Below, in pieces: positions 1-64,000 of a stretch of DNA of 64,000 nucleotides. Below the pieces are notes generated by a model. It was given only the letters and a program-made list of their open reading frames with translations. It was not told the DNA's origin and made no database searches. The DNA is from Terramyces sp. JEL0728. Taxonomy: Eukaryota > Chytridiomycota > Chytridiomycetes > Rhizophydiales > Terramycetaceae. Made by a program: the position numbers and the translations under genes. Position 1 is the first letter of the stretch. The number at the start of each line of letters is the position of its first letter. The stretch is taken from contig JADIIU010000014.1 in assembly GCA_027603945.1 (NCBI GenBank), positions 113,773 through 177,772 of the forward strand, written 5' to 3'.

Positions 1-3000
1 TGAACTGATACAAACACCTGAGATACACCTTTTTTAATTTGCTCTGTTCCAAGGTCAATGTCAGCAAGATATTTAGTTGCAACTTCCAGCAAGGCGTCGT
101 CCGGCCACTCTGAGAACCAATCGATTGTCATACAGTTAACAAGGGATGGGAACATTCGAAGTCTTTTTCTGAAGGTTTCTCCGACTGGACTCATACACAG
201 CACGATATGCAGGTTCTGGCGTACTCTTTCAATGAATAGACTGAAGAGCTGATCGCCGCTTTCTCCGCCTTTGCTTAAAGCTTGCATGCTATTCTTAATT
301 TCTGGCAGCTCATCAGCAGCAAATAGATTAGGAACCTATGGTTAGCTCTAAAAACCTCGCCGCTGCTCAAGATATTACTCAAGTCCTCCAAGAAGCTTTC
401 ATTGATGATCTGTGCGTCTGTTAGCAAGAAAACGGTTGGTTTGTTATCCAGCCCAGTTAATCTGTACAGTTTTTTCAAATCTTCTCTGAACTCTGTATGG
501 CGGTAGTTCTTTGAAATTTTGATTTGGAAAACATTGGTCTGGACTAAATATGCAGCAAGCCTGCTTAAAGATTGCCGTCCGGAGCCTCCAACGCCAATTA
601 AGAATACATTGCCATTTGGTAGACGAAGAACACGTGTAATTCTACAAATGTGCTCTATCGCGTCATAGAATAGTACAAGATCTACTTGCACGAATCCTGG
701 TTCACTGTTGTATTCTACAAGCTTTTCTTCAATGAAAGACTTTAGTTTGTCTGTGTTGGTAATTTCTTCGTAGTGTGGATTATCACTAATTCCAATTGTT
801 AGAAAGTCCCCAAATATTGGATACTTTTTGTTGCATCCCAGCTGGATCAAAGAAGAATTGAAATGTGCAATTATTTTGTCATCTATCAACTTTCTGAAGA
901 ATTCTCTGTCCGGTTTATCAATCAAACGATCTCCAAATACTCTAACCATTTCATGAATCCACAATTTAATCATTGAGTCTCTAGAGTCGTAATATTCCTT
1001 GTTTGAACGCATCATTCCTTGGAAAACTTTGGAAATATCCCTCAAGTTAAACAGATAGTGGATCTTTGCTGGAGTTGGGAGCAATTGAGTGCTGAAAATA
1101 TTGAAAATTTCGATTGTAGCCAAAGTGATCAAATCGCCCAGTGGTTTTACATCTTCTTCAAAATCTTGCAATTTCTGGTTCAGAATGGTAAAGAATATTC
1201 TGTTGATTGAACTTTCATTCGGGAATGTCATATTTAGGACGGTAAACCTAGCTTGGATTCTTGGACTCAACACATTCCTCCCACCTCCAGGTGGCCCCAT
1301 TGCTGCCGCTAGGAAAATATCGTTGAAGTATTTTAGACCTTGTTTTTGTCTATCATAAGCAAATCCATAATCCATGTAGTGCTTGATAAATTCCAGTGGG
1401 GGCTGCGATCCAAATGTGTCCTTCATTGGCATGTTGAAATCATCTATAAAGGTGAGCATTGCCTTTCCTCCAATTGGGACAAATACGTTCTTTGTCCTTT
1501 TCTCCAGCTTTCCTTCTATAATATTCTGCACGCCATTCGAAGTAGTTTGAGCAGACATATTGATTAATAAAATATTAAAGCTTGTATCAGGTGTGAAGAT
1601 TGAGTTATGAACCATGGCGGTCTTTCCTGTACCGACATCGCCCACAAGCAGCACAGGCTTTCTCTTGTTTACCAAAGCTCTGAAAATGAATTCATTTCTT
1701 ATAGTATCGACTGTGGGAACAAATATCTTGTAGTACGGAATTGATGTAGAATATCTCCAACTCGTAGGCAGCTTGTCCTCCCAAGGTGTCCAAACTTTAT
1801 TGGTTTTGTCAACCTGATACTCAAACACAGTGTCTTTACTTGGGAACTGGCCTTCTATTTCACGAAGGAAAGAGTCAAACTTCTTTCTGCTTTCCTGAGT
1901 TAATGAACCGCCAAGAGCCCAAATAACCGAGAAAAGGAACCACAGTTCAATCATTCTACCGTACGAATCCGTTTCATCAGGATTGACACCGTTTTCCAAT
2001 GTGGCTACCGAGTCGAACAAGGTACAGAAAGACTGAATTGCAGCAGATTCGGGGACTGGAACAAACTGGGAACATGTTCTTCTAAATTCAAGCAGCTGTG
2101 CAAGATACTTGTCCGATAATCTTCTGAGTAAATCAATGGATGATTTGTCTTCTCTGACTGCAATCCACGAATCCAGATAGGGTCTCCAACCGAGATACTG
2201 GTAATCAGTATAGATCATACCACAGCGACTGACTGTAGCAGGCGAAGCAGTTGATAGATTTTCGACTTCAAAAAGCAGCGATACCTGCTCGGGCAACGCT
2301 ATTCTTTCCCCGTTAATTAAAGTCAGCACTTTGTTATCATCCAGAACTGTGTTCATTGATTCAATCCATAGTGTATCAACCGGTCCATCCAAAACTATCC
2401 ACTTTTGATCCTTCTTGTCATCTGAGCACGCATTTCGCATCACTGTAGAGAGAACACCGTCTGTCCATTCGTTAGTGTTGATATTAAACTCGCCATAAAG
2501 TTCGGTCAAAGACAGTGCTTTTGGATTGAGAGGATAGAATTTTGCTGGTACAAATTGGTCAGGATTCGTTTTAGCAAGTCGGTTCAGCGTGCTTTGGAGT
2601 AATTTCCACGAGGTAGATTTTCCAGACCCGGTTTCCCCCACAATCATGACCCCGTGTCTGCTGCACTTGGTTTCATAGAGCTGAATCACTTTGAGATAGG
2701 CGATTTCAACAGGTTGGATGTTGGCCAGCTTCATTTCTTCCGTGATGGCATTTTTCATTACAGAATAGTCAAACTGCACTGCTTCGACACCTGGGAACAA
2801 ATCCGACAGCATGGAAGTAAATAATGGCACATCTTCAGCTGTAAGCTTTGGAATATTGTTGTCCCTCATGGCCATGTACAAAACGACTTCATCAGAAACA
2901 TTTGGATCCTGGCGTTTCTTGCTGCCGGCTGAACGTAGACAAGTAGTCAGTGCTCTCAAACCAAAATCATAATGGTCTTGCTTTGAAAGTTGCTGGATAG

Positions 3001-63552: not shown

Positions 63553-64000
63553 TTATTGCATATCAAACAAATAGTTGGCAGCCATTTCTTCGTTTTTATC
63601 ACATGCAAGATAGGCTTCCAAGGCAATATTTCGGTCAAACCCTAATGCTACCAATCTATTGACTGCTTCGTCTTCTTCAGGTGTAATTGTGATATATTCT
63701 TCTTCTACTGGCTCACTTCCTTCATTAATCAACGCCAAGAATTGGTCTTGGTTTTGTGAAATTAGTTGAATTAGTTCTGGATTGGTTTGTCCTAATTGCT
63801 CCAACATTGGTTGTAACAGTGATGGGTTTTGCTGTACCATTTGTCTTAATTGTTGAAATTGCGGAGAGTTTCTCAAGAATTCCAAATTATTTGGTCCTGT
63901 TGGTAGAGTTGGTGCAGGCTGCTGTTGATTTTGTCTTACGGCTTGTTCAAACAAATTGACATATCCGGTTTGTGCTGGCTGTTGAGGTTGCGCTGGTTGT
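63553..64000 (-). CDS. RAD23: RAD23 copy B, C-terminal part (5' end outside window)
   Basis: Open from the window end to its stop. It holds the end of the linker (Q/P/A-rich, then TGYVNLFEQAVRQNQQQPAP), the XPC-binding domain (FLRNSPQFQQLRQMVQQNPS, NPELIQLISQNQDQF) and UBA2 (VNRLVALGFDRNIALEAYLA, ANYLFDMQ). It is highly similar to copy A on the same strand 120 bp away, so the two are tandem duplicates. The intron that splits the XPC-binding domain in copy A is missing here. UBL and UBA1 would lie beyond the window. Confidence 0.93.
   Translation of the reverse strand, partial: QPAQPQQPAQTGYVNLFEQAVRQNQQQPAPTLPTGPNNLEFLRNSPQFQQLRQMVQQNPSLLQPMLEQLGQTNPELIQLISQNQDQFLALINEGSEPVEEEYITITPEEDEAVNRLVALGFDRNIALEAYLACDKNEEMAANYLFDMQ

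Follow-up and report, generated by a model that had tools for sequence, protein, structure and literature searches.

The window analysed here is a stretch of 64,000 nucleotides from contig JADIIU010000014.1 of Terramyces sp. JEL0728, which NCBI places in the Terramycetaceae (Rhizophydiales, Chytridiomycota) and whose assembly comprises 15,016,339 bases in 231 contigs. The predicted genes of the window are interrupted by segments of about 20 nt that very probably represent U2-type spliceosomal introns, and their removal restores conserved proteins in RPN2, RPN7, TMA7 and CFAP299. RPN2, of the proteasome base, lies at 19830..22802 (+) and contains nine introns in the gene-finder model (19852-19872, 19991-20010, 20075-20093, 20200-20221, 20494-20513, 20952-20970, 21628-21647, 22482-22503 and 22666-22685); junctions 1-7 are gapless in 94, 116, 116, 118, 118, 118 and 119 of 119 homologues, respectively. 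The GenBank model of RPN2 (P0121), compared intron by intron, matches ours at eight of the nine introns and is two residues short at the fourth junction, where Globomyces agrees with our model. RPN7 occupies 37797..39140 (-), its end being the limit of the region searched, and was resolved by the gene finder and protein-guided splicing (introns 37972-37991, 38487-38506, 38718-38738, 38880-38898 and 39002-39021). With the homologue P0005 as guide, protein-guided splicing gives five introns (20, 19, 21, 20 and 20 nt) and a protein of 381 aa; the spliced alignment chained for P0005 with motif scoring and for both P0002 runs, and did not for P0005 without the motif (score 25). The first 346 residues of this model, aligned along 96% of their length, are 100% identical to a Terramyces sp. 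JEL0728 protein in GenBank, and Boothiomyces macroporosus comes next with 89%. The GenBank model (P0001) retains the stopless 21-nt intron at 38718-38738 as seven extra residues absent from Boothiomyces. Automatic gene models of genomes with tiny introns therefore need care, since both of the GenBank models compared contained an error, a retained intron in RPN7 and a misplaced splice site in RPN2. TMA7 (50931..51166, -; introns 51002-51020 and 51115-51136) and CFAP299 (42859..43608, +; introns 42973-42991 and 43217-43236), both modelled by the gene finder and Pfam, yield proteins of 64 and 236 aa that cover positions 1-62 of 62 and 2-230 of 230 of their Pfam families, that of the latter being DUF4464, which we take to be CFAP299. 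An earlier sequence-only reading had cited RPN7, TMA7 and CFAP299 as proteins of normal length after intron removal; the lengths of the last two are borne out by this coverage, and RPN7 holds as an example once its introns are removed, with 381 aa in place of the 388 claimed.

Introns were called with a generalised hidden Markov gene finder that handles split codons exactly on both strands. Its first form relied on GT...AG ends, codon usage and a length prior that was flat over 12-150 nt for the window run and over 12-200 nt for a 264-kb run; the 264-kb set adds to the window 20 other contigs, each represented by a single 10-kb piece picked blind at a fixed position. In the window alone the flat-prior finder called 21 introns, 12 of 17-21 nt and nine spread across 40-141 nt. 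The first flat-prior round on 264 kb gave 112 introns with a length peak at 19-21 nt and 36 in the range of 19-22 nt; once self-training had converged there were 228 introns, 212 of them in that range. Since GT-AG boundaries are imposed by the model, the actual test is their excess over decoy pairs: when fully trained on the 264 kb, the GT-AG model placed 191 of 203 introns at 19-22 nt, whereas nine other dinucleotide pairs under the same training kept 69-93 "introns" with only 0-7 in this range, so that the GT-AG boundaries typical of U2-type introns stand out against all nine. A refined model with an explicit branch-point term called 248 introns in the 264 kb, 240 of them of 17-25 nt, and 94 inside the window, where the lengths are 18 (2), 19 (30), 20 (40), 21 (13), 22 (6), 23 (2) and a doubtful 58 nt (1). 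The 94 are a lower bound, because in RPN7 the gene finder found two introns and protein-guided splicing five. The earlier claim that almost all introns measure 18-24 nt with a mode of 19-20 is thus upheld (93 of 94 at 18-23 nt, peak at 20 and 19), and its count of about 135 for the window was not reproduced.

The claim that such introns are used throughout the genome is likewise supported, by the 20 other contigs of the 264-kb set and by a search of the whole 15.0-Mb genome with a gapped intron pattern, which found 1,476 matches against 348 for its mirror pattern; this pattern admits the branch A only at nt 15-17 and is matched by 15 of the 240 introns. At further loci of the Terramyces genome 55 of 56 introns are of 19-22 nt, or 47 of 48 when six repeated between two near-identical loci and two in a training piece are left out. 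Rough estimates put the genome-wide number at about 18,000 by scaling the pattern matches, with a counting error of a quarter, or about 14,000 from plain density.

The introns share a compact anatomy. A typical one consists of the donor GTAATT (nt 1-6), four or five loosely T-rich nucleotides, the branch motif YTNAY, whose reactive A is nt 14 or 15, one or two free nucleotides and YAG. The donor consensus GTAATT shows A in 93% at +3, A in 60% at +4, T in 48% at +5 and T in 65% at +6, with the usual G at +5 in just 15%; T makes up 51% of nt 5-9, and in the fitted branch motif T and A each reach 99%. Of the 240 introns, 124 have the branch A at nt 14, 101 at nt 15, ten at nt 16, four at nt 17 and one at nt 12, so that 225 have it at nt 14 or 15; one base, mostly Y, comes next, and 3 (9), 4 (131), 5 (90) or 6 (10) nt then complete the intron. 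The distances from donor to branch and from branch to end are uncorrelated (r = 0.07, 240 introns), and the lengths expected from independent spacers come close to those observed (n=239; expected/observed 72/76 at 19 nt, 102/105 at 20 nt, 48/38 at 21 nt and 9/14 at 22 nt). Because the two distances are uncorrelated and each takes mostly two values, intron length appears as the sum of two almost two-valued spacers. Only 0-3 nt separate YTNAY from NAG in 239 introns, leaving no room for the polypyrimidine tract that canonical U2AF-dependent 3' splice sites carry between branch and AG. Nor do these introns resemble the weak-motif tiny introns of nucleomorphs and ciliates, which are recognised by having no clear branch consensus. 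U12-type introns have an ATATCC or GTATCC donor and a TTCCTTAAC branch motif; this class was rejected, the commonest donor being GTAATT and the commonest branches TTAAT, TTAAC and CTAAT.

The branch motif is not produced by the model that contains it. A motif-free, flat-prior run on the 264 kb called 134 introns, 43 of them of 18-23 nt, and 81% of these short calls end in YTDAY-N(2-3)-AG against a mean of 9.2% and a maximum of 20.9% in 200 shuffles; nt 14 carries the branch A in 42% and nt 15 in 40%. The same ending occurs in 19% of the 75 motif-free calls of at least 30 nt, which are probably mostly false. As to reading frame, the length of 197 of 239 introns is not a multiple of three, and a stop occurs in 41 of the 42 that remain, but a frame shift or an in-frame stop is partly how introns get found and stopless introns of 3n length are nearly invisible to the finder; no selection for in-frame stops is therefore claimed. 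When predicted coding sequence was scanned with the threshold at its lowest, intron-like 21-mers numbered six in sense against none in antisense; at 19 and 20 nt there were three and three in sense against two and one in antisense.

A pair of near-identical stretches, on contigs C199 and C111, shows how these introns vary. The two share 98.9% identity over 3.1 kb and are possibly allelic contigs or a recent duplication. With regions classed by our own gene model, 2,352 nt of coding sequence differ by 16 substitutions and no indel, 121 nt of introns by no substitution and two one-base indels, and 633 nt of intergenic sequence by four substitutions and three inner indels, one more gap being the end of the stretch. 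The first gene encodes a 358-residue protein identical in both copies; the second extends past the stretch, and the comparison covers part of it. One-base length changes thus appear to be tolerated in introns, since the indels lie there and none in coding sequence, as judged from a single pair and two events.

The other genes of the window repeat this pattern. In what follows, models are those of the refined gene finder and names were assigned from the sequence by eye, except where Pfam is given. Upstream of RPN2 the series begins with a dynein heavy chain at 3..9301 (-; introns 336-355, 3167-3187, 8585-8605), unnamed genes at 10171..11412 (+; 10272-10291, 10462-10481, 10593-10612, 10981-11000, 11087-11108) and 12153..12582 (+; 12337-12355), a WD-repeat gene at 12817..13623 (-) with an intron of 18 nt (12983-13000), a phosphatase-like gene at 14113..14990 (-; 14665-14683, 14824-14842) and two Rab-like GTPases, at 15113..15625 (-; 15166-15184, 15337-15355, 15468-15486) and, with Pfam Ras, at 16022..16803 (-; 16248-16265, of 18 nt, 16378-16396, 16634-16652). 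RIB43A (also by Pfam) lies at 17703..18279 (+; 17820-17838) with an unnamed gene 3' of it at 18328..18853 (+; 18406-18425, 18560-18579). RPN2 is followed by two receptor-like genes in tandem, at 22884..25478 (-; 23493-23513, 24407-24425, 25074-25096) and 25748..28349 (-; 27278-27296, 27945-27964), the second of which also holds the doubtful 58-nt intron (26327-26384), with a 22-nt alternative at 26363-26384; by reading, this pair (22884-28349, -) has the look of ligand-binding proteins with membrane helices. An MFS-like transporter at 30024..31493 (+; 30877-30896, 31217-31236, 31311-31330), an eIF2B-like gene at 31519..33429 (-; 31785-31805, 32165-32183, 33270-33289), an armadillo-repeat gene at 34637..36904 (+; 34746-34765, 34889-34907, 35031-35049, 35176-35195, 35838-35856, 36106-36125) and an unnamed gene at 37046..37750 (-; 37244-37262, 37359-37378) lead to RPN7.

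Beyond RPN7 lie a kexin-like protease at 39151..41265 (-; 39662-39682, 40148-40166, 40268-40287, 40430-40449, 40845-40864, 40945-40963, 41019-41037) and a HIT-domain gene (also by Pfam) at 41440..41861 (+; 41546-41565, 41729-41749). After CFAP299 come a WD-repeat gene, HIRA-like by reading, at 46117..48536 (+; 46517-46535, 46819-46837, 47525-47543, 48051-48069, 48415-48433) and a SEC63-like gene at 48638..50645 (-; 49107-49126, 49611-49631, 50243-50262). The part after TMA7 holds the alpha subunit of a biotin-dependent carboxylase at 51630..53715 (+; 51929-51948, 52097-52116, 52674-52694, 52879-52898, 53262-53283), a kinase-like gene at 53728..56976 (-; 56506-56526), an NSUN2-like gene at 57776..59974 (+; 57893-57914, 58115-58134, 58241-58263, 58345-58365, 58576-58595, 58727-58745, 58951-58970, 59078-59097), a SCYL1-like gene at 60074..62303 (+; 60311-60330, 61255-61275, 61480-61499) and a RAD23-like gene at 62309..63432 (-; 62555-62574, 62860-62880, 63175-63194, 63382-63400).

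The earlier reading had asked for retained and lost spliceosome components, and this check was answered in part, with U2, Prp18, Slu7 and U2AF65 found. U2 snRNA scores 140 bits, with its branch-pairing GUAGUA conserved and the GUGUAGUAUCUGUUCUU block intact; YTNAY, recovered also in the motif-free set, would base pair with this GUAGUA as expected of U2-type introns. In yeast, Slu7 and Prp18 are dispensable at a very short distance between branch and AG, and a loss of these second-step factors was considered for Terramyces and ruled out, both genes being present. U2AF65 (C2:44938-46279) scores 251.7 bits, below the model cut-off of 310.3, probably because introns break six-frame matching; its own gene model has four introns of 19-20 nt. 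The aromatic pair of RNP1 in its first RNA recognition motif (RRM1), F-x-F in the solved U2AF65 chains, which are presumably human and number the pair F197/F199, is H-x-H in Terramyces and Boothiomyces. The comparison took in the best 120 of 1,516 homologues, Boothiomyces among them. At the first position of this pair 74 of them have F, 44 Y, one H and one S, and at the second 117 have F and one each H, I and Y, the metagenome protein P0243 having S-x-I; in RRM2 the first position is Y or F in all 120 and the second F in 119 (V in one). Identity of Terramyces U2AF65 to the mammalian protein (P0356) is 0.38 in RRM1 versus 0.66 in RRM2, and the ratio of the two is 0.57 in Terramyces and 0.54 in Boothiomyces against a median of 0.92 in the 118 others, only two of which fall below Terramyces, P0243 (0.51) and Globomyces (0.55). 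Two 27-bit hits of the U6 covariance model, both in the 98.9% identical duplicated stretch, were rejected as U6 because the gene finder reads that stretch as coding exons and a tiny intron.

Taken together, the segments are very probably U2-type spliceosomal introns of Terramyces that have shrunk to near the smallest size in which the recognition sites fit side by side. The spliceosomal nature that the sequence-only reading had assumed is supported, at the level of sequence, by the GT-AG ends, the branch motif, the restored proteins and the tolerance of one-base indels. Nucleotides 1-6 would be read by U1 and then U6, and the branch motif by SF1 and then U2. Since there is no polypyrimidine tract and the last G lies just 5-6 nt past the branch A, the 3' end would be read as one fused branch-point/AG unit. 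The T-rich nt 5-9 may stand in for the missing tract from an upstream position. Such a fused unit would make the contact of RRM1 with a polypyrimidine tract pointless, and U2AF65 may be retained for its RRM2 and protein-contact (UHM) parts with RRM1 having lost the RNA-binding aromatic pair. U2 pairs with five bases preceding the branch A. If this holds here, two or three nucleotides are spare, so that about 19 nt would be the least length without overlap, and the narrow length range would reflect this lower limit from packing and deletion pressure from above. More tentatively, Terramyces and Boothiomyces may have changed the first recognition of the intron 3' end, with a fused branch-AG unit, the RNA contact of U2AF65 RRM1 given up and size governed by a pair of independent two-state spacers, one of 13 or 14 nt between the first G and the branch A and the other of 5 or 6 nt on to the last G. 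The steric limits raised earlier are a real question, even though U2, Prp18, Slu7 and U2AF65 are all retained and the sole change seen is that in U2AF65 RRM1.

Other origins of the segments have to be weighed against spliceosomal introns. Given their shortness, and with gene models that are predicted, sequencing or assembly insertions, or chance breaks of open reading frames, might be suspected; this is highly improbable in view of the common motif at fixed positions, of decoy pairs that give nothing similar and of two genomic copies that keep the motif though one base different in length. Removal by another route, such as DNA elimination as for the internal eliminated sequences of ciliates, translational bypass or an endonuclease-ligase system, appeals to the fact that such short spacers occur in other systems, but GT-AG ends, a branch motif at a fixed distance and the retention of U2, Prp18, Slu7 and U2AF65 make it very hard to credit; internal eliminated sequences are moreover TA-bounded and the Terramyces segments are not. 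The question that comes nearest to an even balance, without reaching it, is whether the introns are spliceosomal and the change in U2AF65 RRM1 is unrelated drift in an otherwise ordinary spliceosome. Just one protein was looked at in detail, and Globomyces likewise has a diverged RRM1; drift is at odds with a loss of the aromatic pair in only two of the 120 homologues (Boothiomyces and P0243) with the RRM2 residues kept.

Several observations weigh against tiny U2-type introns with an adapted U2AF65. Of the 248 introns called by the refined model eight fall outside 17-25 nt, seven of them of 33-183 nt (33, 48, 56, 58, 81, 95 and 183) and one of 16 nt. The sole exception at the further loci, an intron of 155 nt in a gene that reads as RPL22-like (L033:525-1048), looks real and has a TTAAC motif near the AG at its 3' end, so the machinery may splice longer introns too. 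RPN2 junctions 8 and 9 lie within a variable tail, where they are gapless in 13 and six of 119 homologues. The diverged RRM1 of Globomyces retains the aromatic pair, and the link between U2AF65 and tiny introns is a correlation in one clade. U1 snRNA gave no covariance-model match in Terramyces, which shows nothing as 14 control genomes gave none either and the family searches score only the best candidates. U6 snRNA was not found by covariance model, patterns (up to three mismatches, up to two mismatches, split gene) or BLAST, the last two yielding nothing or three matches without an Rfam match; these limited searches are no proof of absence, as the U6 gene may have diverged, may be broken up by introns or may not be in the assembly.

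Terramyces-type chytrids are culturable, free-living soil saprobes. A chytrid with a 15-Mb genome whose introns come close to the packing limit and carry strong signals locked in position offers a free-living setting for the question of the minimal intron, and the two near-independent spacers together with the matching change in U2AF65 make both the minimal intron and the role of RRM1 directly testable. Among the entries listed by a literature search that covered subscription journals thinly, none dealt with tiny introns in Terramyces, the Rhizophydiales or chytrids in general, and none gave a precedent for an intron-rich fungal genome whose tiny introns have a strong branch point locked in position. 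The intron data are already public, though perhaps undiscussed, because the introns are implicit in the GenBank models. In the available part of a survey of 644 fungal genomes, mean intron lengths quoted as examples range over 63-469 nt, which agrees with the earlier view that such sizes are untypical of fungi now that the host is known to be one; the words Terramyces and Rhizophyd- are absent from its text (PMC8476143).

Among known systems, the Terramyces introns are among the shortest reported and not the shortest known. They do rival the nucleomorph introns of Bigelowiella natans (18-21 nt), as the sequence-only reading had put it, and those of Stentor coeruleus (15-16 nt) and Mikrocytos mackini (16-17 nt) are shorter, according to the accessible portions of PMC10245619 and PMC9505925. 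The mikrocytid introns, uniform and conserved as in Terramyces, number 224 in M. mackini, an intracellular parasite, against more than 10,000 implied by a rough density estimate in Terramyces; only 17-19 spliceosomal proteins were identified in mikrocytids, and the deletion pressure down to a functional threshold argued there would fit the shrinkage proposed here (PMC10245619, same portion). Stentor introns are AU-rich with the branch A nearly fixed at nt 10 or 11, a fixation shared with Terramyces, but they have no strong branch consensus and occur in about 18% of genes (PMC9505925, in the text available). SPF45-dependent human short introns are spliced without U2AF, the model intron being of 56 nt and human where those of Terramyces are of about 20 nt and fungal (excerpts of PMC8363638 and PMC11482624). 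Yarrowia lipolytica, in the accessible text of PMC2483917, also anchors its branch point 2 nt from the AG without a polypyrimidine tract, but has few, long introns (mean 268.75 nt) in which just the 3' half is fixed. The B. natans nucleomorph is similar in intron length, narrow range and several introns per gene, but it is a relict algal nucleus with no branch-point signature, whereas Terramyces is a fungus with a strong position-locked branch motif (PMC10245619 and PMC2483917, as far as accessible). Terramyces is thus an exception to the finding, in the available sections of PMC2483917, that lineages with short introns show weak signals and lack a branch signature.

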